Shown here: piece by piece, positions 2,671 to 53,664 of the stretch
Layout of the letters: each line of letters starts with the position of its first letter
Numbering within the stretch: the stretch's first letter is position 1
Notes under the pieces: generated by a model
What the model saw: the letters and a program-made list of their open reading frames with translations, nothing else
Database searches by the model: none
What the model was told of the DNA's origin: nothing
Made by a program: the position numbers and the translations under genes
Origin: a virus
Length of the DNA stretch: 58,362 nucleotides
Reading direction: 5' to 3' (one strand)
Virus record (IMG/VR): IMGVR_UViG_3300037882_000558
Location: 1-58,362 of that record

Positions 2671-4951
2671 CAAACAACCTTCGAGAAATAACTATGCACA
2701 ATATTTCCCGTTTGAGTTTGATCACTACCATATGTCGAGTGTTCCAGTACCTAAGCTACTCAAGAAAGACGTTGACTTAGTAGTAGACCTAGACCCGTAT
2801 GATATGGTTATTCTAGTAGGTTCAGAGGCTGCTAAAGAGTACGCTAAGATTACCTCGGTAACCAATTATGCAGGACAGCTAGTAAACGGTAAATTTATAG
2901 CGATTACTAATCCCGCTATGTTGCATTTTAAACCTGAAGGTAAACCTGATTTTGAGCGAGCTGTAGGTAAGATTCTTAAGTATTATGAAGGTGTACTTAC
3001 AAATAGTAGTGAATCAGGTGACTTCAAAGGTATTAATAATTCCGAAGAAGCACTAGAGTACTTACTAGAAATCTTAAACTCAGAAGCTAAATATGTGGCT
3101 GCTGACACGGAAACCACATCACTTTATCCTCGCGATGGTTATGTACTAGGGTTATCTCTTAGTTATAAATTAAAGCACGGTAGATATATCCTTACGGATA
3201 TTCTAGACGAGCGTCATATTGATCTGTTACAGCGAATCTTTAAAGAAAAAGTTATCGTATTCCATAACTTAAAGTTCGATTATAAAATGATTCATTACCA
3301 TCTTGGATTAGAGTTTAATCGCTCAGATATTCACGATACAATGGTAATGCATTATGTACTAGATGAAAACGACTCACATGGCTTGAAAGAGTTGGCTTTA
3401 AAGTATACCGACTACGGTGACTATGACGCAGAACTAGATACATTTAAAAAGCAATACTGTGCAGATCACGGTATTAAGCAAGAAGACTTCACATACGATC
3501 TCATCCCTTATCATATTATGTGTAAGTATGCTAGTATAGATACTGCTGTAACTTTAGAGTTATTCTTTAAGTTCCACCCTATTATTGAAAAGAGCGATAA
3601 GTTTAGATTTGTATACCGTGATATCTTAATCAGAGGTACTCTATTCCTAATGGATATGGAGGAAGTAGGTATCCCTATCCATAGAGAACGTATGGAAGCC
3701 ACGGGTATTTACTTAGATACTCAAATCGAAGAAGCTAAACAAGAAGTTTTTGCCTTCGAAGCTATTAAGCAATTTGAAGCAGATAGCGGAAAGATTTTTA
3801 ATCCAAATTCAGTACCTATGTTACGTACGATACTGTTTGATTATTTAAATCTTACTCCCACAGGAAAACTAACTAAGACAGGAGCATTATCTACTGATGT
3901 AGAAGTGCTAGAAGAACTTAGTAGTGAACACCCACTTCCTGCGGCAATTTTAAAAGTAAGGCAATTAGGTAAGATTCGTAGCTCTTATGTTGCCAAAATT
4001 CTACCGGAGCTTGACAGAGATGGACGTATTCGTACTAACTTTAATCTCATTTTTACCACATCTGGGCGTTTATCTAGCTCAGGTAAGTTTAATGCTCAAC
4101 AAATTCCTAGAGATTCTCCAATTAAAGGATGTATTCACGCACCGGCAGGATACAAGATTGTTTCTCAAGACTTAGCAACAGCTGAAATGTATTATGCAGC
4201 CGTCCTAAGTAAAGATAAGAATCTGCAGAAAGTATTTATTGACGGTGGGGACTTCCACTCTAGTATTGCTAAGATGGTTTTCAAATTGGAAGCTGCTGTA
4301 GAACATATTAAGGAGTTACATAAGTTAGAACGGCAAAGTAGTAAAGCTGTTTCTTTCGGTATTCTATTCGGTTCAGGGCCTGCAAAGGTTATGGAAAGCG
4401 TGAATAAAGAAGGTGGTAATATGACTCTCTTTGAAGCTAAAGAAGTCATTGCAGATTACTACAATACATTTAAGCAACTAAAGCGTTGGCTTAATGATCG
4501 TAAGACATTTATTGAAACAAATGGGTACACTTACTCTCATTTCGGACGTAAGCGTCGCCTAGTAAATGTATTTAGCTCAGATAAGGGCATTGCCGCCCAC
4601 GAAGTACGTTCAGGTATTAATGCAGAAATCCAATCACTAGCATCTGATATGAATCTACTAGGTGCTATGGATACTCATGATGAGTGCAAAAAGAAAGGCA
4701 TAGATGCTAAAATCTTCATGCTAGTGCATGACTCCATTGTAGCACTAGTAAAAGATGAAGATGTAGAGTGTTATTGTGAAATCTTGAAGAGGAATACTCA
4801 GAAAGATCGCGGATGTAATATTCCACTATGCCCTATTGGGGTAGACCAAGAAATTGGTAATGATTACTCCTTCGGCGGTTTCGACAAAAAATACGATATT
4901 ATAGATTCAGAACAAGGACCTATGCTACGTGTCAAACCTAAGTCTAAGTGA
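2648..4951 (+). CDS. polA: DNA polymerase, family A, with 3'-5' exonuclease
   Basis: Replicative polymerase. The proofreading domain begins near residue 150 (D153-T-E155, then FHNLKFDYK and the YASIDTAVTLE block with its YxxxD). The polymerase domain carries motif A with D508 and E513 (QDLATAEMYY), motif B around K566 (KAVSFGILFGSG) and motif C as H694-D695-S696. The usual HDE of motif C is HDS here, and the arginine after motif A is a tyrosine. Both are departures from PolI but the two metal-binding aspartates remain. Residues 1-115 are an extra domain with VILVGSEAAKEY and ITNPAMLHFKP, reminiscent of a uracil-DNA-glycosylase-type fold (inference). No 5'-3' exonuclease domain is present; that activity is encoded separately at 16419-17276. 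Confidence 0.93.
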   Translation: MKKIAIIDKQPSRNNYAQYFPFEFDHYHMSSVPVPKLLKKDVDLVVDLDPYDMVILVGSEAAKEYAKITSVTNYAGQLVNGKFIAITNPAMLHFKPEGKPDFERAVGKILKYYEGVLTNSSESGDFKGINNSEEALEYLLEILNSEAKYVAADTETTSLYPRDGYVLGLSLSYKLKHGRYILTDILDERHIDLLQRIFKEKVIVFHNLKFDYKMIHYHLGLEFNRSDIHDTMVMHYVLDENDSHGLKELALKYTDYGDYDAELDTFKKQYCADHGIKQEDFTYDLIPYHIMCKYASIDTAVTLELFFKFHPIIEKSDKFRFVYRDILIRGTLFLMDMEEVGIPIHRERMEATGIYLDTQIEEAKQEVFAFEAIKQFEADSGKIFNPNSVPMLRTILFDYLNLTPTGKLTKTGALSTDVEVLEELSSEHPLPAAILKVRQLGKIRSSYVAKILPELDRDGRIRTNFNLIFTTSGRLSSSGKFNAQQIPRDSPIKGCIHAPAGYKIVSQDLATAEMYYAAVLSKDKNLQKVFIDGGDFHSSIAKMVFKLEAAVEHIKELHKLERQSSKAVSFGILFGSGPAKVMESVNKEGGNMTLFEAKEVIADYYNTFKQLKRWLNDRKTFIETNGYTYSHFGRKRRLVNVFSSDKGIAAHEVRSGINAEIQSLASDMNLLGAMDTHDECKKKGIDAKIFMLVHDSIVALVKDEDVECYCEILKRNTQKDRGCNIPLCPIGVDQEIGNDYSFGGFDKKYDIIDSEQGPMLRVKPKSK

Positions 4952-5462: not shown

Positions 5463-6758
5463 ATGGGCAGAGCAATAATTTCAAATAGAATCTTTATACA
5501 GGTACCTCCTGATGGCCCTAAAGAGCTTATGGAGGCTCTTACTTATAAGATTGAACAAAAAGCACATGGAAGAAACGGTAAATCTAAAACTGTAGAAGTT
5601 ATACGTAATTATAAAGTTGTAAAAGCCGGAGTACTATCTTTACCTCAAGGTAGACAAGATTTAATCCCTGAAGACTATGTAGTAGACGATAGGCGTATTT
5701 TTAATGAAGTACCCTGGCCAGAAGCTAAATACCCATTAAGAGAGGGTCAGCAAGAAGTATACGATAAGGCAGATGATACACTATTCTTAAATGCTAAAGT
5801 TGGTTGGGGTAAGACATTTACTGCATTACATATTGCTAAAAAATTCAGCCAAAAGACACTAGTAATTACACATACCACTGCTCTTCGCGATCAGTGGGTT
5901 AAAGAAATAGAAACACTTTTCGGCTGCAAGCCGGGAATTATAGGTTCGGGTAAATTTGATATTGAAGATCATTTTATCGTAGTAGGTAATGTACAAACAG
6001 TAGTTAAAATGCTAGATGTTTTAGCAAAAGAATTTGGTACTGTTATAATGGATGAAGCCCACCATTGTCCTGCTACTACATTTACTGCGGTAATTGATAG
6101 TTTTCATGCACGTTATCGTATTGCTCTAAGCGGCACAATGCTTCGTAAAGATGGTAAGCACATTGTATTCCCAGATTACTTTGGAAATACAGTATTCAAA
6201 CCAGCTCAAAGTCATACACTTAACCCCAAAGTTAAATTATTGAAGACCGGAGTAGTTTTACGTGGCGCCAATTGGGCTGAAAAAATCAATAATCTTTTAT
6301 ACGATCCAGACTATCAAGAGTTAATAGCCACTACGGCTTTGTTTTATCTAAATCATGGACATAAAGTACTTATTACAGGTAGTAGAGTCGAATTCTTACA
6401 ACGAATCCAGGAGTTAATTGGTGACACATGCGTACTTATTACTGGGGAGGTTGGTTTCGAAGAGCGAACGCGACTCCTTGAAAAAATCGAAGCAGGAGAA
6501 GCCACTTGCATATCTGCTAGTCGGCAAATCTTCACAGAAGGTATTTCCTGTAATCCGCTCAGTTGCGTAATACTAGCAGAACCTACTAGTAACCCTATAT
6601 TACTAGAACAGTTAATAGGTCGTATTCAGCGTTTATGGCCTGACAAGCTATATCCGCTAGTAGTAGACCTACAATTTAACGGACCTGCAGAACGTAGACA
6701 GAATAATATGCGAGTAGCATTTTACAACCAACAAAATTGGGAAATTGACATAGTATGA
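5463..6758 (+). CDS. DEAD/DEAH-box DNA helicase (SF2, UvsW-like)
   Basis: Superfamily 2 helicase or translocase. Walker A is VGWGKT near residue 115, motif Ia-like ITHTTALRDQW follows, motif II is DEAHH near residue 198, motif III is SGT, and the C-terminal RecA-like half ends with the motif VI block LIGRIQRLWP. The N-terminal 100 residues are a small domain seen in phage helicases of the type III restriction-helicase class. T4 UvsW is the best-known functional analogue, acting in branch migration and replication restart. It begins directly after the preceding gene and its TGA overlaps the next ATG. Confidence 0.88.
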   Translation: MGRAIISNRIFIQVPPDGPKELMEALTYKIEQKAHGRNGKSKTVEVIRNYKVVKAGVLSLPQGRQDLIPEDYVVDDRRIFNEVPWPEAKYPLREGQQEVYDKADDTLFLNAKVGWGKTFTALHIAKKFSQKTLVITHTTALRDQWVKEIETLFGCKPGIIGSGKFDIEDHFIVVGNVQTVVKMLDVLAKEFGTVIMDEAHHCPATTFTAVIDSFHARYRIALSGTMLRKDGKHIVFPDYFGNTVFKPAQSHTLNPKVKLLKTGVVLRGANWAEKINNLLYDPDYQELIATTALFYLNHGHKVLITGSRVEFLQRIQELIGDTCVLITGEVGFEERTRLLEKIEAGEATCISASRQIFTEGISCNPLSCVILAEPTSNPILLEQLIGRIQRLWPDKLYPLVVDLQFNGPAERRQNNMRVAFYNQQNWEIDIV

Positions 6759-7054
6759 CAGTATTAGAGCTTTTAATTATAGTTTATATATTATCTCTAA
6801 CAGTGACGTTAATAGCACATATTAGAGATAATATTGATAGTATTAAATCAGATATTAGTAGATGTCGTGATACCTGGTACTCTCCACGAGTAACAATAGG
6901 TAGTTTATTAAGAGACCTACTTGTAATTATATGTCCTATAGTAAATACTGTAGCAGCTATTATATATTTACTTATGTTTATGGAATGGACCTGGAATAGT
7001 TTCTTCCCGAATTTATTTCGTATTCCCTTAATACCTCCAAAAACAAAGACTTGA
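6755..7054 (+). CDS. Small membrane protein
   Basis: 99 residues with two hydrophobic segments, roughly 4-23 and 52-75, separated by a charged loop with several Arg and Asp residues. Start ATG 6755 overlaps the helicase stop (ATGA), so expression is coupled to it. There is no lipobox or cleavable signal. The function is not recognisable; small inner-membrane proteins in phage early operons often interfere with host processes or superinfection, but nothing here proves that. The gene ends just after the -35 box of the next promoter. Confidence 0.65.
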   Translation: MTVLELLIIVYILSLTVTLIAHIRDNIDSIKSDISRCRDTWYSPRVTIGSLLRDLLVIICPIVNTVAAIIYLLMFMEWTWNSFFPNLFRIPLIPPKTKT

Positions 7055-7079
7055 TTAAAACTTTCTGATTTGCTATAAT
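7051..7079 (+). promoter_or_regulatory. Sigma70-type promoter with extended -10
   Basis: TTGATT at 7051-7056, a 17-base spacer, and a perfect TATAAT at 7074-7079 preceded by TGC (extended -10). Transcription would start near 7086 and reach the small genes at 7110 and 7279, then the NAD module. The spacing and the perfect -10 make it convincing although the -35 matches only 4 of 6. Confidence 0.75.
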
Positions 7080-7109: not shown

Positions 7110-7298
7110 ATGAAGTACCGTTATTATATTACCGATACCTTTGATGGAGAAATTAAAGGTACTAATGAAACTGCATTAGTCAATCAACTTCGCGGGTGTC
7201 AGGAATATTTTATCCTTGATACTGAAATTGATTGCTGGCTGCAAATGGACAGAAATCTACCTATTAAGAATTATAGAGATGCGCATTTACATAATTAA
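7110..7298 (+). CDS. Small hypothetical protein
   Basis: 62 residues, not recognised. ATG 7110 follows an AAGGA ribosome site. The protein begins with an aromatic-rich strand (KYRYYITDTF) and is soluble and mildly acidic. It is the first gene after the promoter at 7051-7079 and its end overlaps the next gene by 20 bases. Nothing suggests a catalytic role. Confidence 0.6.
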   Translation: MKYRYYITDTFDGEIKGTNETALVNQLRGCQEYFILDTEIDCWLQMDRNLPIKNYRDAHLHN

Positions 7299-7530
7299 AA
7301 TCTATAATCTTAATAACGGATTGGTACCGCCTATTAAGATTTCGTCCCGTTTTAAGTCTTGGTTGTATTTACGTTTAGCATACTTAGTAGTAGATACTTA
7401 CGGTAGAGTTACAGCTGCAAAATCAGATCAGTTTGATTTTGAAGTAGTAGATTCAGAAGGTATTCACATACTAGGTATTACCGAGGAGGAATTCATACAT
7501 GATGGGTTCCTATTATCAACACAACATTAA
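7279..7530 (+). CDS. Small hypothetical protein
   Basis: 83 residues from ATG 7279. A longer frame reaching back to 7216 is open, but it would run through the middle of the preceding gene, and the start at 7279 gives a more natural N-terminus (MRIYIIKIYN). The protein has a basic, aromatic first half and an acidic second half. No family recognised. It is followed 15 bases later by the NMN adenylyltransferase-Nudix gene, which has a strong AGGAG site. Confidence 0.55.
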   Translation: MRIYIIKIYNLNNGLVPPIKISSRFKSWLYLRLAYLVVDTYGRVTAAKSDQFDFEVVDSEGIHILGITEEEFIHDGFLLSTQH

Positions 7531-7545: not shown

Positions 7546-8553
7546 ATGAAGAAAATTTTAGGTGTAGTTATTGGCCGTTTCCAAGTCCCTGGTGGGCTTC
7601 ACGAAGGCCATAAATTCCTATTTAACAGCATTTTAGATAATTGCGATGAGCTACTAGTCTTACTAGGCTCAGCAAATCGGCCACGTTCCGTGGCAAATCC
7701 GTTCACTTATCTAGAGCGCGAAATTAATATCCGGGTTACACTAACCGAAGAGCAAAATGCCCGTACTACCTTTCTCCCACTGAACGATTACAAGTATAGT
7801 AATACGCAATGGATGGCAGACGTAGATGCTAGTATTAAGAAGTATAAGAAGTTTAGGGATTTGGACGTTAACCTATTTGGACACTTTAAAGAAGGTAATA
7901 ACTACCTAAAGTGGTTTCCTCAATATAAGTACCAAAATGTCGAATCTAGTCTGGAAATTACAGGTACAGCAATTCGTGGCCAATTTAAGCACTTACTACC
8001 GGCTAGTGTGGTTAATGATATGGACTATTTTGAAGCAGAAACCGCACGCTTTCAAAACTATCCGTATCCTGAATCTTTAAACTTTAATTGCGCTGATGCA
8101 ATCCTAGAATGTCAAGGGCATATCCTACTTATTAAGCGAGGGCACCCTCCTGGTGTAGGAAACTGGGCACTTCCAGGCGGTTTCAAGAACCGTAACGAGA
8201 CCTTCCAAGATGCTGCTATTCGTGAATTAATGGAAGAAACCAATGTACGTGTACCTAAAAAGGTGCTACTAGGTAGTATTAAGTCAACTACCTTATTTGA
8301 TAGCCCTCATCGTGCTGCAGCTGGTATTCCTCGTAATACTTTAGCAGTACATATTGTAGTAGAACCTGATCCTGATGGAAGCCTTCCCCGCGCTAACGGG
8401 TCGGATGATGCAGCTGAGGCTAAGTGGGTTCCTATTGCAGCCATTCTTAACGATTACCCGCTACACGATGACCACGCAGATATTATTTCTGTAGTCACAA
8501 AGTCAATGCCAGTTATTGCTTTTGCTAACGCAAGGATCATGAATGGCTATTGA
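7546..8553 (+). CDS. nadM: Bifunctional NMN adenylyltransferase / Nudix hydrolase
   Basis: The N-terminal half is a nucleotidyltransferase of the NadM type: IGRFQVPGG then LHEGH (the phosphate-binding HxGH) and the later ISSTAIRG-like element ITGTAIRGQ, which would join NMN and ATP to give NAD. The C-terminal half, from about residue 185, has a full Nudix box (GGFKNRNETF then RELMEETNV), the class that includes ADP-ribose pyrophosphatases. This fusion is known in cyanobacteria (Synechocystis slr0787) and in phages. ATG 7546 has a perfect AGGAG site. With the gene at 8752 it forms a two-step route from nicotinamide to NAD. It overlaps the following gene by 11 bases. Confidence 0.92.
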   Translation: MKKILGVVIGRFQVPGGLHEGHKFLFNSILDNCDELLVLLGSANRPRSVANPFTYLEREINIRVTLTEEQNARTTFLPLNDYKYSNTQWMADVDASIKKYKKFRDLDVNLFGHFKEGNNYLKWFPQYKYQNVESSLEITGTAIRGQFKHLLPASVVNDMDYFEAETARFQNYPYPESLNFNCADAILECQGHILLIKRGHPPGVGNWALPGGFKNRNETFQDAAIRELMEETNVRVPKKVLLGSIKSTTLFDSPHRAAAGIPRNTLAVHIVVEPDPDGSLPRANGSDDAAEAKWVPIAAILNDYPLHDDHADIISVVTKSMPVIAFANARIMNGY

Positions 8554-8740
8554 AATTATCCGGCGCGGGTCTTTACCAGAAGAAAAGAAGTATACATGTA
8601 CCTGCGCTAAGTGTAATACAATTTTTAATTTTCTACAGAAAGATGCAGAATACCACAAAGGTTCTGACGACTTGGATTCACCATCGTTAAGAATTCTATG
8701 TCCGCTTTGCCTTTCTACTCAACACATTTACGATATTTGA
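8543..8740 (+). CDS. Small zinc-ribbon protein
   Basis: 65 residues with two Cys pairs, CAKC near residue 20 and CPLC near residue 52 (an extra Cys precedes the first), which would bind one zinc ion. The loop between them is acidic. It begins inside the end of the NadM gene and ends 11 bases before the NAMPT gene, so it is co-translated with both. Such ribbons bind nucleic acid or protein partners; a link to NAD metabolism is only positional. Confidence 0.65.
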   Translation: MAIEIIRRGSLPEEKKYTCTCAKCNTIFNFLQKDAEYHKGSDDLDSPSLRILCPLCLSTQHIYDI

Positions 8741-8751
8741 AGGAGTTTCAA

Positions 8752-10131
8752 ATGAACCTTATTAATTCTATTTTATTCAACGTTGACAGCTATAAAGTTT
8801 CCATGTGGAAGCAGTATCCGGAAGGTACTGAAGTTGTTTATAGTTACATCGAAGCCCGTGGTGGTGATCTAAGTACCGAAGTTCTTTTCTTTGGTCTGCA
8901 AGCCTTTATTAAAGATTATCTCTTAAAGCCTGTTACAGCAGCCGAAGTTGCACTAGCTGACAAGTATTGGACTGCTCACGGTGAGCCTTTCAATCGTGCT
9001 GGTTGGGATTATATTGTTGAAAAGCATAATGGTCTACTTCCTATCCGTATTAAAGCGGCTAAGGAAGGTCTAGTAATTCCTAGTAAGAATGTACTGGCTA
9101 CTATTGAAAATACTGACCCTAATGTACCGTGGCTTACCACTTGGGTTGAAACAGCGATGCTACGCGGCATCTGGTATCCTTCTAGTGTAGCTACTATTAG
9201 TTACAAAATTAAGAAGTTAATCGCACACTATCTTGAAAAGACGGGTGATCCTAGTTTACTACCATTCAAGCTACATGACTTCGGTGCTCGCGGTTGTAGT
9301 TCAAATGAAACCGCATCACTAGGCGGGATGGCTCACCTAGTTAACTTTATGGGGACTGATACTTATGTTGCAGTACTTAAGGCAGTTGAAACTTACGGTG
9401 CTGATGTGGCTAGTACGGGTTTCAGTATTCCAGCTGCGGAACACTCTACTATCACAAGCTGGGGGCGCGATTCCGAAGCTGACGCTTACCTTAACATGGT
9501 ACGACAATTCAGTAAGCCAGGAAGTATCTATGCCGTCGTCTCAGATAGCTACGACATCTACAACGCCTGCAAGCTCTGGGGGGGCGATCTTAAAGATAGC
9601 GTTATCCAATCGGGCGGAACACTTGTAATTCGCCCGGATAGTGGAGAACCTACTGAAGTTCTACCTAAGATGCTAACCATTCTAGATGAGCAATTTGGTA
9701 GCGAAGTCAATAGCAAGGGCTTTAAAGTACTTAACAATGTTCGCCTAATCTGGGGTGATGGTATTAACCACAAGAGCATTTGGGCTATCCTAAGTTGTTT
9801 CTTCCAACTAGGATGGTCCGTAGATAATATTGTGTTTGGTATGGGTGGTGCCCTACTTGGTCGCGTGCAACGCGACGACCTTGGGTGGGCAATGAAGTGT
9901 TCTGCTATTCGTGTAAACGGTGAATGGCGCGACGTATTCAAGGATCCAATTACCGCTCGTGGTAAGGCTAGCAAGAAGGGTCGTGTTACACTCTATAAAG
10001 AGGCTGCAAATAGTGCCTACTACTCAGGTGTAGAAGATTGGCCGCCTAGTGAATTAGAACTAGTTTTTCAGGACGGTATTCTAGTTCGTGATATGACTTT
10101 TACTGAAGTGAGGGCAAATGCCACAATCTAA
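8752..10131 (+). CDS. nadV: Nicotinamide phosphoribosyltransferase (NAMPT)
   Basis: Converts nicotinamide and PRPP to NMN. The family signatures are clear: HDFGARG, the catalytic-histidine block PAAEHSTITSWG (H231 here), VVSDSYDIYN, RPDSGEP for phosphoribosyl binding, and IWGDGI. The length of 459 residues fits the bacterial/phage NadV group. I placed the start at ATG 8752 behind an AAGGAG site; an upstream in-frame ATG at 8698 would overlap the previous gene by 43 bases and has no good ribosome site. Paired with the NadM-type enzyme upstream it completes a salvage route that bypasses nicotinate. The stop overlaps the next gene by 14 bases. Confidence 0.95.
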   Translation: MNLINSILFNVDSYKVSMWKQYPEGTEVVYSYIEARGGDLSTEVLFFGLQAFIKDYLLKPVTAAEVALADKYWTAHGEPFNRAGWDYIVEKHNGLLPIRIKAAKEGLVIPSKNVLATIENTDPNVPWLTTWVETAMLRGIWYPSSVATISYKIKKLIAHYLEKTGDPSLLPFKLHDFGARGCSSNETASLGGMAHLVNFMGTDTYVAVLKAVETYGADVASTGFSIPAAEHSTITSWGRDSEADAYLNMVRQFSKPGSIYAVVSDSYDIYNACKLWGGDLKDSVIQSGGTLVIRPDSGEPTEVLPKMLTILDEQFGSEVNSKGFKVLNNVRLIWGDGINHKSIWAILSCFFQLGWSVDNIVFGMGGALLGRVQRDDLGWAMKCSAIRVNGEWRDVFKDPITARGKASKKGRVTLYKEAANSAYYSGVEDWPPSELELVFQDGILVRDMTFTEVRANATI

Positions 10132-10561
10132 AACTGGTGTAGCTTTTTTACTACCTGCATATTATATCCATGATTCGAAAGTAGCCGACCATCTTTTTCT
10201 AGCTATTTCACGTAGGAACGATCCTGAATTATTTGGTATTCCCGGCGGGAAGGTAGATCCTGGCGAATCTGAGTTAGAGGCAGTCCAACGAGAAACTGAT
10301 GAAGAAGTAGCTTTACTAGGCTCCTCAGATCAGTTTCAGACTATCTATTCAGGACTATGTGTTGATTATTGGGTTACAGGGTACCTATGGGTAGGTACTA
10401 AAATCAATCTAAATCATCTAGCAGCAGAGCCAGGTCTAGAATTAAAGTGGCTCTCTAGAGAAGAGCTTTGCGATCCACTTATCTCTCCATTCTCTGAATA
10501 TAACAAGAAAATCTTTAAAGCATACGATGATTGGTTAAAGCATAATGCCACACTTCACTAG
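10118..10561 (+). CDS. Nudix hydrolase
   Basis: 147 residues with a complete Nudix box, GGKVDPGESELEAV then RETDEEVAL near residues 45-68, so it should cleave a nucleoside diphosphate linked to another group. It is separate from the Nudix half of the NadM fusion. Substrate cannot be read from the box; candidates by context are ADP-ribose, NADH, dinucleotide alarmones or oxidised dNTPs. It starts inside the NAMPT gene and its last bases overlap the next gene, so all four genes from 7546 to 10561 form one translational block. Confidence 0.88.
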   Translation: MPQSKTGVAFLLPAYYIHDSKVADHLFLAISRRNDPELFGIPGGKVDPGESELEAVQRETDEEVALLGSSDQFQTIYSGLCVDYWVTGYLWVGTKINLNHLAAEPGLELKWLSREELCDPLISPFSEYNKKIFKAYDDWLKHNATLH

Positions 10562-10832
10562 AACTATGATGCTGGAGGCTTTAGACGAGCTTCCTAATGC
10601 GGAATATTTTGCCGTACTTGATTTAGTAGGTGCTATGGCTACAAAGCTAATGGATTCAGGGCGTAAAGGTTTCCAAGAAATTGATGCCAGAACCTTGAGT
10701 TTACAACTACAAGATTGCGTAGCAAAAGGTGATCCAGTAGACGTAGCTAATTACTGTGCTTTTCTACAGTTCAAAGAACAAAAGATTGACCTACCCTCAG
10801 CCGATGAAATATTACAAGACTGGTTAAAGTAA
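10545..10832 (+). CDS. Hypothetical protein
   Basis: 95 residues, mostly helical, acidic, ending in DEILQDWLK. It begins 17 bases inside the Nudix gene and closes this transcription block. Two helix-rich halves around a GFQEIDARTLSLQL segment suggest a small all-alpha regulator or binding partner, but no family is recognised. Confidence 0.6.
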   Translation: MPHFTRTMMLEALDELPNAEYFAVLDLVGAMATKLMDSGRKGFQEIDARTLSLQLQDCVAKGDPVDVANYCAFLQFKEQKIDLPSADEILQDWLK

Positions 10833-10855: not shown

Positions 10856-10882
10856 GCACTTGCGTAGACAATACGCAAGTGC
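10856..10882. repeat. 11-base inverted repeat filling the promoter spacer
   Basis: GCACTTGCGTA (10856-10866) and TACGCAAGTGC (10872-10882) are exact reverse complements around a 5-base centre. The right arm ends on the base before TATAAT and the left arm overlaps the -35 region, an ideal place for a repressor or activator. A bound protein would exclude or position RNA polymerase. Confidence 0.65.
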
Positions 10883-10888
10883 TATAAT
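10860..10888 (+). promoter_or_regulatory. Sigma70-type promoter with extended -10
   Basis: TATAAT at 10883-10888 directly preceded by TGC (extended -10). The hexamer 17 bases upstream is TTGCGT (10860-10865), a 3 of 6 match. A start near 10895 gives a short leader to ATG 10907. It would drive the 121-residue protein and the DNA-binding protein up to the terminator at 11934. Confidence 0.65.
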
Positions 10889-10906: not shown

Positions 10907-11272
10907 ATGATTCTATTATTCAATCTCCAGCAATTAGAGACACAAGCAGAAAATAATTCACGAAAGTTTTTACAACTCTTTGGACAGGTAGTAACAGGTC
11001 CAAAGAGTTTACTTGCGCCAAAAACACGCAAGATACTTGCAGGAACTAATTTTATTCTAAACCCTGTACCGTTATTGACTACTACCGTCGATCCTAACTT
11101 TGTTATACAGTACATTAAATTAGCGGGAATGCGAGACTATGCTCTTTATAAATTGTTTGGTAGTAAATCACTACCCCTCTCTTATTTCCCTGATGTGGAT
11201 TTAAATAAGTTAAAAAACAACACGTTATTAGATATAACAGCAACAGATATAAATTTTAAATACGAAAGATAA
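10907..11272 (+). CDS. Hypothetical protein
   Basis: 121 residues, not recognised. The N-terminal third is helical and polar, followed by a Pro-containing middle and a C-terminus rich in Asn, Asp and Leu (DLNKLKNNTLLDITATDINF). It is the first gene behind the promoter at 10860-10888 and lies 6 bases before the single-strand DNA-binding protein, so a role in DNA replication or recombination is plausible from position. Confidence 0.6.
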   Translation: MILLFNLQQLETQAENNSRKFLQLFGQVVTGPKSLLAPKTRKILAGTNFILNPVPLLTTTVDPNFVIQYIKLAGMRDYALYKLFGSKSLPLSYFPDVDLNKLKNNTLLDITATDINFKYER

Positions 11273-11278
11273 GACAAA

Positions 11279-11926
11279 ATGGCTTTAAGTTTTTCAAACA
11301 CCAAGGGTAAGGCAGTTTCCAACAAGGTTGAGTCCTATGAATATAAGGACGGCGAACAGACACTACGCTTAGTAGGCGGCATTCTACCCAAGTATGTGTA
11401 CTGGGTAAAGGGTACTAATAATAAAGATATCCCTATTGAATGCCTAGCATTTGATCGTGAACTAGAAAAGTTCACTAATACTGAAGTAGACCACGTTACT
11501 AGCTTCTACCCAGATAAGAAGTGTTCATGGGCTTATGTTATTAACTGTATCGATCCTAAGGACGGTAAGGTTAAGGCGCTAAACCTAAAGAAGAAGTTAT
11601 TCGAACAGATTATTGGCGCTGCCGAGAATCTAGGCGATCCTACCGATCCAGATACTGGTTGGGATATTGTATTCAAGAAGGTTAAGACAGGTCCTCTAGC
11701 TTTCAACGTTGAATACACTCTTAATGCTTTCAAGCTAAAGCCACGTGCTCTAAACGAAGCAGAACGTGAAGCAGTAGCTGCTGCCAAGAGTATTGACGAA
11801 AAGTTCCCTCGTGCTACTCCTGCTGAAGTTCTAGCTCTATTAGAGAAGCTAGCTCGCGGAGCCTCTGAGGAAGAAGAAGGTGGAGAAGGTGCTCCAGCTA
11901 CTCCTGAAGAAGCTAAAGACCTATAA
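11279..11926 (+). CDS. Single-stranded DNA-binding protein (gp32-like)
   Basis: 215 residues. The core has beta-rich segments with aromatic and basic residues (KYVYWVKG, KKCSWAYVINCIDPKDGK, LNLKKKLFEQI), similar to phage gp32-type OB-fold proteins, and the last 25 residues are a Glu-rich flexible tail that ends EEAKDL. An acidic tail that recruits replication partners is the hallmark of SSB, T7 gp2.5 and T4 gp32. It coats single strands during replication and recombination. The codons used look optimised (GCT, CTA, AAG), consistent with high expression. A terminator follows directly. Confidence 0.75.
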   Translation: MALSFSNTKGKAVSNKVESYEYKDGEQTLRLVGGILPKYVYWVKGTNNKDIPIECLAFDRELEKFTNTEVDHVTSFYPDKKCSWAYVINCIDPKDGKVKALNLKKKLFEQIIGAAENLGDPTDPDTGWDIVFKKVKTGPLAFNVEYTLNAFKLKPRALNEAEREAVAAAKSIDEKFPRATPAEVLALLEKLARGASEEEEGGEGAPATPEEAKDL

Positions 11927-12930: not shown

Positions 12931-13153
12931 TATTGTATACTCACAACCTAATTGTGTTGCCTGTGTAGCAGCTAAGCACCTTTTAGCTTCTAAAGGTTAC
13001 TCAATTGAGGAACGCCTAATTGATGGTAAAACCTGGACGCTGCAGGATGTTCAGAAGGAATTTGGGCATGTACGTAGTGTTCCACAAGTATCTATCAATG
13101 GCCGCATTATTGGCGGATTAGATATGTTAAGAAAGTATCTGGAACGTGGATGA
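12905..13153 (+). CDS. Glutaredoxin
   Basis: 82 residues with the redox motif C16-V-A-C19, the family VPQV element (RSVPQVSINGRIIGG) and a short C-terminal helix, the complete glutaredoxin fold. It can donate electrons to ribonucleotide reductase, whose C-terminal cysteine pair lies about 5 kb downstream in the same orientation. ATG 12905 is 26 bases inside the nuclease gene; a second in-frame ATG at 12911 is also possible. It overlaps the next gene by 4 bases. Confidence 0.85.
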   Translation: MPIMQIKSSIVYSQPNCVACVAAKHLLASKGYSIEERLIDGKTWTLQDVQKEFGHVRSVPQVSINGRIIGGLDMLRKYLERG

Positions 13154-13480
13154 AAACAGCAGTTGTAGGTTCTAGAGACTTTTATAACTACCCTGACTTA
13201 TTCTTAGAACTAGAAAAGCATGATATTACAGAGATAGTATCTGGTGGTGCTAGAGGTGCTGATCAGTTAGCACAGCAATATGCTGCAGAACGTCTTATAC
13301 CTATGACTGTATTTTTACCTGATTGGGATAGGTACGGTAAAGCAGCTGGCATGATTAGAAATAAAGCTATAAGATGCCGAGCATGTTATAGCTTTCTGGA
13401 ACGGATTCAGTAAAGGTACTGCTAATTCTATTCAATTAGCTAAAAAACTAAATAAAAGGCTTACAATAATCGTAACATGA
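13150..13480 (+). CDS. SLOG/DUF2493-type nucleotide-binding protein, frame interrupted
   Basis: The first 75 residues have the Rossmann-like SLOG pattern of DUF2493 proteins: TAVVGSRDF, then VSGGARGADQLA, then MIRNKAI. Read straight, the frame stops at 13413 with an unrelated tail. Shifting frame near 13371-13373 gives DAEHVIAFWNGFSKGTANS and a tail to TGA at 13478-13480, which is the family's expected second half. That TGA overlaps the ATG of the next gene (ATGA), as for its neighbours. So one indel (one base too many or two too few) interrupts a gene of about 109-110 residues. SLOG domains bind nucleotides or nucleotide signals; the ligand is unknown. Confidence 0.75.
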
Positions 13481-15279
13481 TTAATATTGAAACACTAGAA
13501 TGGTCCTATGCTTTTTCGTATGGGCCTAATAATAAGATTGACTTCTCAGAAAATCCATTACTTCAATTAGTGGGTAAAAATGGTCATGGGAAGACTAGTA
13601 TAGCCTCTATCTTAGAAGAAGGTATATACAATAAGAACTCCAAAGGTATCAAGAAATCAGATATCTTAAACAGATATACAACAGAGAAAGCTTATACCAT
13701 TTCGGTAGGTTTTACTAAAGATACCGATGTCTATAGAATTGAAACTAGACGAGGTTCTACACAGACTGTTAAGTTATTTAAGAATAATCTAGATGTTTCA
13801 GCGCATACTTCTACAGCTACATATAGGCTGATTGAAGAAACTATGGGTATGGATCATAGAACATTCGCTCAGATTATTTATCAATCTTCTGCATCTAGTT
13901 TAGAGTTTTTAACTGCTACTGACTCTAACCGTAAGAAATTTTTAATTGATCTACTTGATCTAAGTATTTATCCGGAGACTTGTGAAGTATTTAAAGCTAC
14001 AGCTAAACAGTTGGAAACTGAAGTTACATCTGTTAATGCTAAAATTGATTCTGCGAATTCGTGGCTAAAGAAAAACGCAACAATAGATTTAACCCCAAAA
14101 CCAGTAGTTAAGGTAAAAGAAGCCCCTAGAAGTTTATACGATCAGATCGGTGAATTGAAAGCTCAGCTAAGTAATATCACTAATTTAAATAAGCGTACTA
14201 TTCAGAACAATGAATATGCCAAGCTTATGCGTAACATTGATGTAGTACCTCCAGGCCCTAAGCCAGTACATCCAATGTTACAAGCTTTAAAGGGCGAGAA
14301 ATTAAGTTTATCTGGCATACAGCAGTCTTCTAAAGCTTTACTTAGTAAGTTAGGTGCCATTGCTTCCTCTACTACATGTCCTACATGTTTACAGGATATA
14401 GATGCTTGCAAACGAGATGCAATTATCCTACAAAGTCAAACTAGTAAAGACGTAACTACATCTCGTATTGCAGAAATAGATAAACTATTTGCAGAAATGC
14501 AACGTGAAGATAGTCAGTGGGCAGCTAGAGTAGCTGTATTAGAAGAATACGAGCGTTACAATGCTTTATTCGATCCTGAAATGTCTTCAGAATTGCTAGA
14601 TCGTGAAGCAATCGTGAATCAAATTTCAGCACTTGAGGCAGAGGTTAAAAAGATTGAATTAGAGATTTCTTTTGCACAAACCGCAAATAGGTCAGCTGAG
14701 GCACATAATGCCAAGATTTCTGTTATTACTGAACAGATTGCTGAATTTAACGAAGAATTAGTTACTTTAAACGCTAGACTTAAAGTATTATTAAAAGAAT
14801 TAAATAATACTCAGGTTCTTGTTAAAGCATTCGGACCTAATGGTATAGTAGCGTATAAGATCGAGTGTTTAGTTAAAGACCTAGAAGAACAGACTAACTT
14901 ATACCTAACTGAGCTATCTGATGGCAGATTTCAGTTGCGTTTTGAAGTATCTACTAGTGATAAATTAAATGTAGTTATTACAGACAATGGTAACGATATT
15001 GATATTTTAGCATTGTCCAGTGGTGAGCGCGCACGAGTAAACGTAGCTACACTACTAGGTATTCGTAAGCTATTACAGTCTCTATCCAATAACAGAATTA
15101 ATTTGTTATTCCTAGATGAAACCATTGAGAATCTAGACGTGGACGGTAAGGAAAAACTAGTAGAAGTTCTACTACAAGAAGAGCATTTAAATACTGTATT
15201 AATCTCTCATTCCTTCACACATCCGCTCATTGAGAAATTGAATATAATTAAAACAAATAACATTTCGAGGATTGAATGA
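13477..15279 (+). CDS. SbcC/Rad50/gp46-like ATPase
   Basis: SMC-like ATPase partner of the nuclease at 11983. Walker A is GKNGHGKTS at residues 33-41. The centre is two coiled-coil arms around a zinc hook C301-P-T-C304, and the ABC signature LSSGERARV and Walker B FLDETIENLD (D547) follow. At 600 residues the arms are short compared with bacterial SbcC (about 1000). The complex processes DNA ends and hairpins and feeds recombination-dependent replication. Start ATG 13477 is coupled to the preceding gene and the stop TGA overlaps the next ATG. Confidence 0.92.
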   Translation: MINIETLEWSYAFSYGPNNKIDFSENPLLQLVGKNGHGKTSIASILEEGIYNKNSKGIKKSDILNRYTTEKAYTISVGFTKDTDVYRIETRRGSTQTVKLFKNNLDVSAHTSTATYRLIEETMGMDHRTFAQIIYQSSASSLEFLTATDSNRKKFLIDLLDLSIYPETCEVFKATAKQLETEVTSVNAKIDSANSWLKKNATIDLTPKPVVKVKEAPRSLYDQIGELKAQLSNITNLNKRTIQNNEYAKLMRNIDVVPPGPKPVHPMLQALKGEKLSLSGIQQSSKALLSKLGAIASSTTCPTCLQDIDACKRDAIILQSQTSKDVTTSRIAEIDKLFAEMQREDSQWAARVAVLEEYERYNALFDPEMSSELLDREAIVNQISALEAEVKKIELEISFAQTANRSAEAHNAKISVITEQIAEFNEELVTLNARLKVLLKELNNTQVLVKAFGPNGIVAYKIECLVKDLEEQTNLYLTELSDGRFQLRFEVSTSDKLNVVITDNGNDIDILALSSGERARVNVATLLGIRKLLQSLSNNRINLLFLDETIENLDVDGKEKLVEVLLQEEHLNTVLISHSFTHPLIEKLNIIKTNNISRIE

Positions 15280-15974
15280 GAAGTATAGAAGCTAGATACG
15301 GCAAGATTTGGTATTACGGCAAAGACGAATACGTAGGTAGAAGCCTTCACAATTATGGTGAATTTAGTGGCGAAGAGTGTGAAATAATTAACTCACTAGC
15401 CACAGGAACATGCTTAGACATTGGTGCCAACATAGGAGTTATGTCTCAGATGTTAACTTACTACGGTAAAGAATGTGTTGCCTTTGAGCCTCAACCGGAA
15501 ATATTTAAGCTATTAGAACTAAACTTTGAAGGTTTAAAATTTAACGTTGCCTTAGGTTCGGAATCCGGTACTGCAAAAATGCCTAGGCTTCGTTATGGTA
15601 CTAAGTGCAATTATGGCGGTATTTCGCTAAATACTCGTAGCGAACTAGGTAGCTACGATGTACCAGTAATGACTCTGGATTCTTTACAAATAGCTAGCGT
15701 TGGTTTTATCAAGATTGACGTAGAAGGTTGGGAACAAGAGGTACTTAAAGGTGCCTCCGAAACTATTTCCCAGTACAAGCCTGTTATGTACATCGAAGAT
15801 GACAGACTCGAAAAACGAGCAAGCTTGCGCCAGTACATAAACTACCTAGGCTACGATATTGAAGTTAGCGAGCCCCCACTATTCCGCCCTAACAACTTCT
15901 TTAATAATCCTAAAAATATTTGGGATAAGAATTACGTAAGTTGTAATTTGATTTGTAGGCCTCGCCATGGTTAA
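15276..15974 (+). CDS. FkbM-family methyltransferase
   Basis: 232 residues. The SAM-binding motif I is CLDIGANIGVMS, followed by VAFEPQPE (acidic ribose-binding residue) and the FkbM hallmark FIKIDVEGWEQEVLKGA. FkbM enzymes mostly O-methylate sugars, polyketides or other small groups, not DNA bases. It sits within recombination genes, overlapping SbcC by 4 bases and the resolvase-like gene by 8. A substrate cannot be deduced; the other glycan-type enzyme in the window, the glycosyltransferase at 53645, is a possible partner. Confidence 0.85.
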   Translation: MRSIEARYGKIWYYGKDEYVGRSLHNYGEFSGEECEIINSLATGTCLDIGANIGVMSQMLTYYGKECVAFEPQPEIFKLLELNFEGLKFNVALGSESGTAKMPRLRYGTKCNYGGISLNTRSELGSYDVPVMTLDSLQIASVGFIKIDVEGWEQEVLKGASETISQYKPVMYIEDDRLEKRASLRQYINYLGYDIEVSEPPLFRPNNFFNNPKNIWDKNYVSCNLICRPRHG

Positions 15975-20284: not shown

Positions 20285-20461
20285 TTATTCCTTAATAGGA
20301 AATGGTGCTTTTAAACAATATAGCAAACGAGTAGTTGAAGGCATCCTTATAGTACCCGATTCATTACTAGGACCACAAAATCTTAATAACACTGCAGGTC
20401 TTGGAGGTGGTGTAATATTTAAATTACCTGTTATCTGTTTAATAGCAGATTGTATATTCAT
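20285..20461 (-). CDS. Small hypothetical protein
   Basis: 58 residues starting at ATG 20461, which overlaps the stop of the SGNH gene upstream (TAATG). It ends three bases before the terminator stem. The protein is basic with a Pro-rich centre (NITPPPRPAVLLRF). No family recognised; coupling to the tail protein suggests a tail-related or chaperone role, but it could also be a spurious frame. Confidence 0.5.
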   Translation of the reverse strand: MNIQSAIKQITGNLNITPPPRPAVLLRFCGPSNESGTIRMPSTTRLLYCLKAPFPIKE

Positions 20462-21777
20462 TACCAAGCACCAGAAGAAGTTAATTTATTGAACCACTCT
20501 TTAGCAAATGCAGGGTATTGGCTAGCCTGTACGTGAGGAGCATTACTACCTGAGATAGCGGTAGCAGGAGGCTCTGGGTATGTTACAACATTTCGGCCCC
20601 ATAGTTCGTATAAGTCACCACCACGAATAACATTGGCAGGAGTAACAAAACCACTAGCAAATGCATCTGAAATACCTAACTGTAAGGTACGATAAGTATC
20701 TACGTATACAGGATCGTCAAATACAGCAGCATTTGGACTAAAGCAAGTGAAACCTAATGCTACTTTGTAACCTTGAGCAGTAAAATAGTTAACCATGTTA
20801 CGTATAGCAACTGCGTACCATCCACGCACCGTAGGTTGACTAACTAATGCTCCTTGAGCATCCGATTGACCGTTTGCCATAAATACCCAACGTTCTCGAA
20901 CGAAAGGTATAGCATCTAGAGCTGCTTTAGTTCTTGCAAGTAAACCTAGTGGATCGAAACCAAACTCACCTGAAGCAAGAGGCTTGAATAGTGTAAGTGC
21001 TCCTACAGAAGTAGCTATACAAGTCCAAGTAACAGTGTTATCAGGGATTACATCATTAAGGGCCGCTGTTGACATAGTACTAGGTTGTGTAGCTCCTGTT
21101 ACTTGTGAGCCTACAGGGATGATGTAGTCAATATTAATAGCACCACCGCCAGAAGGAATAGCTACGCCACTATTATTACAAGCATAACGAGCACGACCTG
21201 TAGTACAACGGAATACTCGTGTACCAACTAAAATAACGTCACCATAATCTCCGGAATCCCCGGTACCAATACTAGCGCGTTGACCGAAATATGCGGTAGA
21301 GGCAGACCACTGACCTACTTGGCCTGTCCACTGTTTAATAAAGCTACTACCACCAATAGCGCAATTAGCCCATTTAATATTCCAACCCCTCTGACTTAAA
21401 AAATCATCAAGTAAAGGAATTACAGAACCTAGTGCTGTAACTGCAGGTGCTATAGGATCTGTTAGGCCGTTAACATTAAATGCAGTAGTCCAAGCTACAG
21501 TACCGGGACCTTCCCAAGTACGTGCAGATCCACGTTCATTACTTTGACCTACCATAGCTACTGCTCGCATCCCGTTAATTCCGGGAGTAGCTTTAAGCTT
21601 GTACTTGGATACAACTGGTACACCATTTACATATTTCTGTAAAGTTACACCATCATTAAAAGCATCTAGTACGCTTATAGGCGAACCATTACTAACAATA
21701 TCCCCGTAAGGAGCTATCGTATAACCACTAATAGTTAGAGTATTAGCGGTTAGGTTATCATAATTATATACATCCAT
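20461..21777 (-). CDS. Tail protein with SGNH/GDSL-type hydrolase domain
   Basis: 438 residues. The first 60 residues (MDVYNYDNL... to about KYKL) are nearly the same as the start of the protein at 22785-24673 and probably attach both to the tail. The esterase domain starts with AMVGQSNERGSA near residue 75 (Ser nucleophile, GQSN-type), includes a second MANGQSD segment and has SNAPHVQ near the C-terminus as a possible catalytic His. A Trp/Tyr-rich insert around residues 170-250 resembles a carbohydrate-binding segment. A likely role is deacetylation of a surface polysaccharide during adsorption (inference). Upstream lies an interrupted small gene and then PhoH. Confidence 0.8.
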   Translation of the reverse strand: MDVYNYDNLTANTLTISGYTIAPYGDIVSNGSPISVLDAFNDGVTLQKYVNGVPVVSKYKLKATPGINGMRAVAMVGQSNERGSARTWEGPGTVAWTTAFNVNGLTDPIAPAVTALGSVIPLLDDFLSQRGWNIKWANCAIGGSSFIKQWTGQVGQWSASTAYFGQRASIGTGDSGDYGDVILVGTRVFRCTTGRARYACNNSGVAIPSGGGAINIDYIIPVGSQVTGATQPSTMSTAALNDVIPDNTVTWTCIATSVGALTLFKPLASGEFGFDPLGLLARTKAALDAIPFVRERWVFMANGQSDAQGALVSQPTVRGWYAVAIRNMVNYFTAQGYKVALGFTCFSPNAAVFDDPVYVDTYRTLQLGISDAFASGFVTPANVIRGGDLYELWGRNVVTYPEPPATAISGSNAPHVQASQYPAFAKEWFNKLTSSGAW

Positions 21778-22784: not shown

Positions 22785-24673
22785 TTAAGCACGTTTTTCA
22801 ATACGTGCTTCACTCATTAACACTCTAATGATAGAATTCTCGGATCCAGTACCTAAACCACCTTCAAGATAGGCTAAGAGACTAGTTTGACCTGCAGGAA
22901 TTTTCCACCAAGGTGTTCTCATAATACCCGTTTTATTGCTATATACTTGTGAGGCGGGAGTAATAAAAGAACTCTTCCCGCCGTCTGCTGTAAAGGAAAA
23001 TAAACTATCAATGGTAGCACCGGGACGTAGGGCTAGCATAATACTACGCCAATTAGAATCTAAGGCGTGTACCCTCATAGATAAGCGAACCCAATCACCT
23101 GCCACTAAACCTACAGATGCTAGTGTAACTGTTTGTTGAAAAGTTATACGTTCTTGAGTTGTAACTGTACCGCCTACAGTACCCTGTAAGTACTGCCAGT
23201 CTGATCGTGACTCTAGATTTGGTAAAGGTAGTATACCTAACCATGCCGCAGCATTATCGCTTGTAGAGGCCCAAGGTACTGTATTCCATGTAGGCGCTGC
23301 AGTTCCTGCTGTGCCCGCTGTAGTACAAACATAATGTAAACCAGTACGATAAGTAGGTAATACAATATCTCCAAGTGCATATGTTGTATTCGCTCTCCAA
23401 ATCTTAGGAACACCAGAAATTTTGCGAGCAGTACAAGTAACGTTTGCACCCGGTGTATTAACTGTCCAGCTAGAGGCTACTTGTCCTTGCGGTAGTCCGG
23501 CAGTAGAACCTGCAGATGTATGAGTACCACTAGAACCAGCCATAGCTCCGTTAGTAATATAATTATCAGTACTCAAAGAAGTAGCGCTATAAGGACGTAA
23601 TTTTATGTAAGGTCTAATTAGTTCAGCTGCTTTTCTAGCAATTTTATCAGCACCGATAGCGGTCCAGTGAGTGCCGTCCACTAGATCAGTGGCACTGCCT
23701 GTATCAGTAGCAGGGTCATTAATAAGACTATAAACAGGTACTAAAACTACAGAACCCCTATTAGCCACGGCATTTCTAAGTCCGGTATTATATACGCGTA
23801 AAAATGTCTGTCTAGTAGAATCCATTGATCCTTGTGGGTGTTCTTCATTAATAATAACGAATATACCTGCTGCTGCTAAGATATCTAATATAGCTATAGT
23901 ATTGGCTAAAGATACATTAGGATCTCTACCTTGAGCCATATCATTAATGCCTATAGTTACTTTAGCATGTGAATAAGGGGCTAGATTTAAAGTACGTAAT
24001 AAAGCTAAAGTGCTTGAAGTTTCATGACCTGGCACACATAGATTAACAACATCCGACCAAGGCTGTTCAAGACTTGAACAGAATTCACTAACACTACCTG
24101 CAGCTCCTTGAATTGCGTCAATAGTAACGCATAAGCTGCTTCCGCTATATCCTGTGGTAGCTACAACAGCATTAACAAGATAATCATAGTCTGGTGCATC
24201 TAAAGGTACTGAAATGGTACCTGTAGATGTAGTAACACTAGTGAAGTCAAACCAACGATTACGCAATGGGGCCTGCACTGGTGCATCTGGATCAATTAAT
24301 ATTCGCTGACCTGCAGGAATATTATGAGGAGCTGTAAAGGTGATTAGCGCTGTACCAGCAGGAGTACCTGCGGAAATAGCAGAAATAGTTTTTACCCAAC
24401 CACCTAAAGCCGGGAAAGGTACAGGAGATCTAGCATCTCTAGAATCTCCTATTACAAGTAATTTAGTACCTACTTGTATAACGCTTTTATTATTAAGCTC
24501 TATTGCTTTAGCAGGTACACCATTTAAATATTTTTGTAAGGAAATACCATCATTATAACTATCTAATATTCCAATAGTTACCCCATTGCTTACTATCTCT
24601 CCATAAGGTGGAATATTATACCCACCTATACCAGTGTATTACTGGTTAAATTATCATAACTATATACATCCAT
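22785..24673 (-). CDS. Tail protein with SGNH/GDSL hydrolase domain, frame interrupted near 24632
   Basis: The long frame 22785-24278 lacks a natural start (GTG inside a strand). Upstream it stays open to about 24630, reading GYNIPPYGEIVSNG and DSYNDGISLQKYLNGVP, which aligns with the N-terminus of the 438-residue protein. Its ATG at 24673 (MDVYSYDNLTSNTL), behind AAGGA, is in another frame, and one base is missing between them at about 24631-24634. Restored length is 629 residues. Hydrolase blocks: LLVIGDSRD (Ser), GINDM, and DGTHWTAIGADK (Asp-His), a complete GDSL set. A WRANTTYALGDIV segment resembles a carbohydrate-binding module. It probably trims a surface glycan during adsorption. Confidence 0.8.
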
Positions 24674-27369: not shown

Positions 27370-27407
27370 CCTCTATTTTGTACCAATTATAACATAGAGG
27401 TACAAAA
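27370..27407. repeat. Two interlocked inverted repeats across the -10 box
   Basis: TTTTGTACC (27376-27384) pairs with GGTACAAAA (27399-27407), and CCTCTAT (27370-27376) pairs with ATAGAGG (27394-27400). The pairs are interleaved, so only one can form at a time. All four arms surround or overlap the -10 element and the start point. Confidence 0.6.
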
Positions 27408-27414
27408 CAGTCAA
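27386..27414 (-). promoter_or_regulatory. Sigma70-type promoter with extended -10
   Basis: On the - strand: TTGACT (27409-27414), a 17-base spacer, TATAAT (27386-27391) preceded by TGT. Five of six -35 bases match and the -10 is perfect. It would start transcription near 27379 and drive the FCCH-domain gene, spanins, holin, endolysin and the SGNH proteins. Confidence 0.85.
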
Positions 27415-27431
27415 GCATTTTATTATACCTA

Positions 27432-52369: not shown

Positions 52370-53664
52370 ATAGTGTAGCTATATAGGGCATAACGAATTG
52401 CGTCACCGATGTCAGAGAAGTCATGTTTTGGTTTTTCTTTAGTTAAGGTTTCACGGGTATCCCAAGCATACTGGTCAAACATGGTGAGTACATGTTTGCA
52501 GTGCGGGGCAACTTTCAAACGACCCTGTTCTACTAGGGTCTGTACATAAGCAATACCTGGTAATACATCTTTTTTAGCTTTAATTGTAGCGATATCGTAG
52601 GTATAGGCTAAGTCAGCACCAAACTGAGCCGCGGCCGAGTCGATGAATAATGCGTCAACTTTATACTTATGTAACATTTCAGCAATGCGATCAGCATGTT
52701 TAGCTGTTACAGTATTGGATTCCAAGTACTCATCTACGATATGGAAAGTATCATCATAGTCATCATAAGCAATTACAGCAAAGGCTGTAGGGTCTTTATA
52801 TCCGGGGTCTAGCCCAGCTATAAATTCTATTCGGCCCTTAGGTTCAAATTCGCAAATGCTAGACTGTGGAAGCTGATAGATCTGCCCTTCGAACACTGTA
52901 AACGAAGCCATGTATTCTTGTTCAAAGTGGTTGCGTGACATAGTCTTACGAGCTTCGTTGACGTCTTTTTCCGACATACGCTCGTTTTCAGTATAGTCAG
53001 CATGTAGAGATACCCATTCAGGGTATTCGTCACTAAAACCACGTTGGTAGTATTCACTAAACCAGTTATTTTTACCGCGAGGTGTAGAAATAAAGATGGC
53101 CTTTGAGTTAGGACGGTCTAGAGTAGGGCGTAGCGCAACTTCAAACGCCTCTCGGGCATCTGCCCCAAGCGCAGCTTCGTCGAAGATAATCAAGTCATAC
53201 GAACGTCCAACGCAACTATCTACAGTTCCAATAGAACCCATACGAATGGTCGAACCATTCTCTAGTTCAATTACACGATCTTTAAGATTGTCTTTTGCTA
53301 CTTCTAGGTCAAAAGTACGGATTAACTTACGTTGTAATTCAAACGAGATAGACGATAACGAAAAGTTAGGCGACATGATTAAAACATTACAGCCAGGCAT
53401 TAAGTCAACTAATTGACCAATAATGTTAGCAATGAATGTTTTACCAAGACGCCTACTTAACGCAGCTACAACAAATCGAAAAAGAGGGTTGTTAACTGCG
53501 TTAATTAGCGCAATTTGGGGTCGGTTGATTTCTTCCCATGCGTTCTTACCATTAAAGTTTAATAGCTTAAGATAAGGAACAATCGGAAGTTTTATGAATC
53601 GTTCAGTAACAGGAAACTCAGTTACAAAATCTCTATCAATGCCTTCACGTGATATGGTCAACAT
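52366..53664 (-). CDS. terL: Terminase large subunit
   Basis: 432 residues, the packaging motor and nuclease. Walker A is SRRLGKT at residues 70-76, Walker B LIIFDEA with D162-E163, and the coupling motif STPRGKNN follows. The C-terminal RNase H-like nuclease has D286 (AGLDPGYKDP), LFIDSAAAQ and a DIGDAIRYAL metal-binding end. Start ATG 53664 is 20 bases inside the glycosyltransferase gene, behind an AGGAG site. Packaging series (cos or pac) cannot be told from it. Confidence 0.95.
   Translation of the reverse strand: MLTISREGIDRDFVTEFPVTERFIKLPIVPYLKLLNFNGKNAWEEINRPQIALINAVNNPLFRFVVAALSRRLGKTFIANIIGQLVDLMPGCNVLIMSPNFSLSSISFELQRKLIRTFDLEVAKDNLKDRVIELENGSTIRMGSIGTVDSCVGRSYDLIIFDEAALGADAREAFEVALRPTLDRPNSKAIFISTPRGKNNWFSEYYQRGFSDEYPEWVSLHADYTENERMSEKDVNEARKTMSRNHFEQEYMASFTVFEGQIYQLPQSSICEFEPKGRIEFIAGLDPGYKDPTAFAVIAYDDYDDTFHIVDEYLESNTVTAKHADRIAEMLHKYKVDALFIDSAAAQFGADLAYTYDIATIKAKKDVLPGIAYVQTLVEQGRLKVAPHCKHVLTMFDQYAWDTRETLTKEKPKHDFSDIGDAIRYALYSYTI

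Follow-up and report, generated by a model that had tools for sequence, protein, structure and literature searches.

A putative two-step NAD salvage cassette at a phage helicase-SSB junction that is empty in related phages

The virus record IMGVR_UViG_3300037882_000558 from IMG/VR (58,362 nucleotides, analyzed here over its full length and referred to as the window) carries a self-promoted pair of NAD genes. The site that they take up is vacant in related phages and has been occupied on more than one occasion. We consider it quite likely that these genes form a cassette of the NARP2 (NadV-NadM) type for two-step NAD salvage, which would restore NAD against host defense. Phage NadV-NadM pathways are widespread and published, so the biochemistry itself is not new. 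What is new here is the setting, which also adds a compact siphovirus lineage to the carriers of a full NadV-NadM pair. Since the window is linear and its first gene (DnaB-like) continues past the record end, the genome size is a lower bound.

The cassette extends from a promoter at positions 7050-7079 to a second promoter at 10859-10888. It lies between a helicase gene (5463-6758, + strand) and a 121-aa ORF followed by the gene for a single-strand binding protein (SSB; 10907-11926 together, + strand). The three ORFs claimed in the first-pass annotation are present, all on the + strand: a NadM-type bifunctional NMN adenylyltransferase-Nudix hydrolase (7546-8553, 335 aa), a nicotinamide phosphoribosyltransferase (NAMPT/NadV; 8752-10131, 459 aa), and, as a separate gene, a stand-alone Nudix hydrolase (10118-10561, 147 aa). 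Their description as one coupled block agrees with the overlapping or nearly touching genes but is incomplete, as two further + strand genes belong to it, namely a 65-aa CxxC...CxxC zinc-ribbon-like ORF (8543-8740, phrog_2834) between NadM and NAMPT and, last in the cassette, a 95-aa ORF without a Pfam match (10545-10832). The 65-aa ORF overlaps the NadM stop, the Nudix gene the NAMPT stop, and the 95-aa ORF the Nudix stop, while 12 bases separate the 65-aa ORF from the NAMPT start. An alternative NAMPT start is possible at 8698, but we favor 8752 because AAGGAG lies just 5' of it and because the upstream ORF occupies 8543-8740. Small ORFs fill 7110-7530, between the first promoter and the NadM gene, and the first of them is a predicted ORF of 62 aa (7110-7298, + strand).

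The NadM-type product matches PHROG 395 (E=1e-53) and Pfam NUDIX (E=2e-19). Its NMN adenylyltransferase (NMNAT) half is weak in Pfam (CTP_transf_like, 16.8 bits, under the cut-off of 21) but clearly matches solved NadM structures. The best NCBIfam bifunctional NadM equivalog model scores 220.9 bits and does not reach its cut-off of 397, these models being built for close cellular groups. An AF2 model from 39 phage homologs (mean pLDDT 93.4) superposes on 2qjo with a TM score of 0.85 over 344 columns and on the Francisella enzymes 2r5w and 2qjt with TM scores of 0.82-0.84 (0.84 for 2r5w), and the match spans both domains in the order of bifunctional NadM. Residues R11, H19, H22, and R144, as well as the Nudix residues G211, G212, E227, E230, and E231, are invariant across the 39 homologs. 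Cellular NadM NMN adenylyltransferase/ADP-ribose pyrophosphatases (2QJO; 2R5W/2QJT of Francisella tularensis) have the same domain order and fold (TM 0.82-0.85) and share HxGH, the Nudix glutamates, and an F-D-x-P-x-R segment that follows the Nudix box. However, the window protein is 25-30% identical to them, with a three-residue insertion in the ATP loop and a Nudix box carrying EETN instead of EExG.

That insertion qualifies the earlier description of a NadM-type fusion with GRFQ and HxGH motifs and a Nudix box: the domains, residues, and fold match bear it out, but GRFQ and HxGH stand three residues farther apart than in the nearest kin. Residues 9-22 (7546-7620) read GRFQVPGGLHEGH, that is, GRFQ-VPGG-LHEGH, whereas those kin (L009, L012, and L007) have GRFQPLHxGH, with P where the window has VPGG. 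Similarly long loops before HxGH occur in the distant phage homologs L054, L062, L063, and L070. Because of this insertion and an identity of only about 40% between the NMNAT half and its kin, altered NMNAT activity is possible. Of 1365 homolog pairs, 96% show stronger conservation in the Nudix half than in the NMNAT half (means of 0.52 versus 0.39), and the Nudix half is thus unlikely to be vestigial. This suggests that the Nudix activity of NadM is under selection, with the caveat that folds differ in their natural rate of change, and by analogy with its 2QJO/2R5W kin the fused Nudix half probably acts on ADP-ribose.

The identification of the second enzyme as a NAMPT holds. It exceeds the cut-off of NF006629 (588.9 bits against 405), matches PHROG 448 (E=5e-157) and the NAMPT_N and NAPRTase families, and conserves every catalytic residue checked. 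Aligned with human NAMPT (chain 2gvl), it keeps Y18, F193, R196, D219, H247, R311, and D313, along with G353, D354, G383, G384, R392, and K415, whose roles we take to be those generally ascribed to them in NAMPT structures. Both bacterial NAMPT (Xanthomonas, 7YQO) and human NAMPT match over the whole length, although the phage protein lacks the human insertion near residues 45-55.

Given host PRPP and ATP, a NAMPT and an NMNAT make up a complete route from nicotinamide to NAD, as the first-pass annotation proposed, and the pairing is that of the published NARP2-type module. The two adjacent genes in one coupled block place the cassette within phage NARP2/NadV-NadM salvage. Among 50,697 phage records, NAMPT-type genes occur in 1911 and NadM in 460, and the two are adjacent in Acidovorax phage ACP17 and in Rhizobium phages. 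These phages and the Vibrio T4-like phages share with the window the same two adjacent enzymes and the same NadM-Nudix fusion, and the ACP17 proteins are 51% (NadM) and 59% (NAMPT) identical to those of the window. The window differs from the known phage pairs by the coupled Nudix gene, the 65-aa and 95-aa ORFs, and the long loop before HxGH. It also differs in its compact siphovirus backbone, nearly all sampled phage records with a full-length NadM being larger than 110 kb. A 2022 survey that described the NadV-NadM pathway found NadV in every NadM phage and NadV to be rare among small phages (PMC9503650).

An extended -10 promoter motif, CTTG-N17-TGCTATAAT, stands at the head of the cassette (7050-7079, + strand) and overlaps a 10-bp inverted repeat (CTTTCTGATT/AATCAGAAAG). 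A second copy (10859-10888, + strand) lies 5' of the 121-aa ORF that precedes SSB. The window contains exactly four copies of CTTG-N17-TGNTATAAT, where 0.03 would be expected: the sites at 7050 and 10859 flank the NAD genes, and those at 27386 and 55465 are on the opposite strand. Scanned with a generic sigma-70 model, the region gave 27 sites against 24.9 expected, which is not above chance. The block had been credited with its own promoter, and the motif is real, but it precedes the small ORFs instead of lying directly before 7546. Comparable motifs are found 5' of NadM in the relatives L096/L073 and L012.

A perfect inverted repeat of 11 bp (10856-10882), with a fold z of -6.3, encloses the spacer of the 10859-10888 promoter. 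Within the window, stem-loops accompany three of the four exact motif copies; they also occur at a few sites of relatives but are weak otherwise, so we rejected the stem-loop as a general trait of these promoters. The units at 10856-10888, 7050-7079, and 27386-27415 nonetheless recall the PeSLs of T4-like phages, in which a promoter with a stem-loop borders an exchangeable module (PMC4503421). Here, too, a promoter and a stem-loop occur together beside a module that would be exchangeable. However, the window belongs to a different phage group, and only some of its promoters carry a stem-loop.

The block is an optional insert, and relatives exist in which its site is empty. The syntenic relatives L074, L075/L076, L077, L078, and L081-L084 have an empty junction in the order helicase, short gap, promoter of this kind, 121-aa ORF, and SSB, the promoter standing at the position that matches 10859-10888. 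A further relative, L080, has a few hundred bases at the junction. NAMPT and NadM are absent throughout the 52.8-kb record of L084, the only record for which NAD genes elsewhere in the genome are excluded, as the empty-site relatives are mostly short contigs. The window terminase has no match in the relatives' records. NadM and NAMPT do occupy this junction in L073 (the contig of L096; L009 is alike) and L012 (the contig of L097), where a promoter lies 5' of NadM and both the second Nudix gene and the 65-aa ORF are missing. None of the relatives examined has the second Nudix gene at this junction. In a separate observation, the contig of L007, which also encodes NadM and NAMPT, carries a NadR-like protein (2769-3857; nucleotidyltransferase plus AAA_28 kinase) and thus brings three NAD salvage enzymes together.

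The carriers of the cassette do not form a single clade. A core tree of five concatenated proteins groups the window with L074, L076, and L078, all with an empty site, and L073 and L012 with the empty L077, and a single carrier clade is rejected (AU p=5e-6). Single-gene trees of the polymerase, helicase, and SSB agree with the core tree, and the SbcCD tree also separates the window from L073/L012. In the NAMPT tree, the window falls with L004 and Acidovorax phage ACP17, and L073/L012 with L007; here, too, the test rejects a single carrier clade (AU p=4e-4), although the long window branch calls for caution. The core and NAMPT trees thus point to at least two events of filling or of content exchange at the site. 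The GC contents of NadM (0.42) and NAMPT (0.44) exceed those of the helicase gene (0.38) and the flanking ORFs (0.30-0.33). We dropped base composition as proof of a foreign origin, since SSB and the ribonucleotide reductase gene are just as GC-rich.

In the mechanism that we propose, the cassette genes would be co-transcribed from their own promoter at 7050-7079. NAMPT would convert nicotinamide and host PRPP to NMN, and the NMNAT half of NadM would use NMN and ATP to make NAD. The fused Nudix half would probably split ADP-ribose into AMP and ribose-5-phosphate, which would clear the other NADase product and return material towards PRPP. The likeliest selected benefit is the restoration of NAD when a host defense enzyme of the TIR, SIR2, or SPARSA type depletes it. 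Phage rebuilding of NAD as a counter to such defenses, on which the first-pass annotation had drawn, is documented (also in PMC12774641): it was proposed for the NadV-NadM pathway in the 2022 survey (PMC9503650), a further paper names NARP1 and NARP2 as counter-defense systems that replenish NAD (PMC11984713), and NARP2 belongs to the core genome of Vibrio phages (PMC12028318). By analogy with these systems, we regard counter-defense against NAD depletion as the likeliest role of the cassette.

Phage NAD salvage is often termed auxiliary metabolism, and the pair could instead act as a general booster that enlarges the NAD supply available to replication and energy metabolism during infection, independently of host defense. 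The location fits such a role, in that the neighborhood is a replication module with the helicase, SSB, and SbcCD genes adjacent and those for ribonucleotide reductase and dUTPase farther along. However, closely related phages share these replication genes yet live without the cassette, more than one acquisition or exchange of it has occurred, and neither an NAD-dependent ligase nor an ADP-ribosyltransferase was found among the window genes scanned. A function in conflict fits an accessory, repeatedly gained cassette better than core metabolism does, and we therefore judge the booster reading unlikely, though deserving of some weight. The natural pairs of phages with and without the cassette offer a means to test counter-defense against a general metabolic role. 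The same module includes an FkbM-type methyltransferase gene (15276-15974) among its recombination and replication genes, and a YqeY/GatB-like gene (tRNA amidotransferase related; 1383-1823) lies between the DnaB and primase genes.

The stand-alone Nudix protein is one of a small set of proteins that share a C-terminal SPFxEYN motif and occur in Acinetobacter phages and large uncultured phages. Its AF2 model (pLDDT 89) gives generic Nudix fold matches, and profile and fold matches are tied among NudJ, MutT, RppH, Ap4A hydrolase, and ADPRase. No substrate can therefore be assigned, and the earlier idea of an action on alarmones finds no support. The protein probably removes some nucleotide by-product. 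Single-sequence search recovered no relatives, and an alignment-based search recovered six, in large phages, none of them adjoining NadM-NAMPT. Near one of these, on a 320-kb phage contig, are an NAD-kinase-like protein (L091, 4489-5361) and a further Nudix gene. We rejected a kinship with T4 NudE, as no BLAST hit rose beyond chance. A link of the 65-aa ORF to NAD genes was likewise rejected, its BLAST hits lying in a few phages, at positions where the matches showed no NAD gene.

It is improbable, in our estimate, that the Nudix domains are the main weapon, aimed at ADP-ribose-derived immune signals or at capped or alarmone nucleotides, with NAD synthesis secondary. The Nudix half is the most conserved part of NadM, and a second Nudix gene is coupled to the operon. 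Set against this, that second enzyme has no assignable substrate and stands beside NadM-NAMPT in no relative examined, and no Nudix ADP-ribose pyrophosphatase is known to open cyclic ADPR signals. The survey does propose a role of phage Nudix domains in countering ADPr signals (PMC9503650), but according to a recent preprint no enzyme hydrolyzing 2'/3'cADPR was known before RyDEP (PMC13232231). A defense-model scan returned a generic Nudix hit (PDC-S07) for both Nudix proteins and nothing more for the NAD cassette. It also gave a weak PsyrA hit for a short SLOG-type ORF (YAcAr, PF10686) near the cassette, at 13150-13413; an action on ADP-ribose derivatives has been suggested for phage SLOG proteins (PMC9503650).

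NARP1 (Adps-Namat) likewise rebuilds NAD from nicotinamide but uses ADPR-PP directly, and its Namat has a related transferase fold, of the same family and with the same catalytic core as NAMPT, marked by the motif GSX..X..X.TRD with aromatic selectivity-clamp residues, as given in a 2026 paper (PMC12774641). That the window protein is a Namat joining ADPR-PP to nicotinamide is very improbable, and we rejected this identity on the clamp residues: Namat Phe392 and Tyr396 correspond to Ala and Arg, and the motif reads GMGGALLGRVQRD, not GSX..X..TRD. In addition, phmmer favors bacterial (511 bits) and human (393 bits) Nampt over the more distant PDB chains 9w5x/9ke8 (about 234), no Adps was recognized in the window, and it is NadM that adjoins NAMPT. 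The protein therefore appears, from its sequence, to be of the PRPP-using Nampt type.

Beyond NAD salvage itself, we tentatively raise a broader reading, which is possible but falls well short of the likelihood that we attach to the salvage cassette. The helicase-SSB junction may be a docking site for counter-defense or auxiliary genes, bounded by promoter units (partly with stem-loops) and exchanging NAD-rebuilding cassettes, the one in the window having been extended by the second Nudix and two small proteins into an NAD/ADP-ribose repair unit. Uncharacterized neighbor genes at this site may be further counter-defense factors.

Elsewhere in the window, a 439-aa protein without a PHROG match (53645-54964, minus strand) overlaps the start of the terminase large subunit gene and has apparent TPR-like repeats. 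Also on the minus strand, between PhoH and the early genes, a GDSL-lipase-like gene with a head-decoration-like segment sits beside one for an unmatched 438-aa protein (22785-24278 and 20461-21777).
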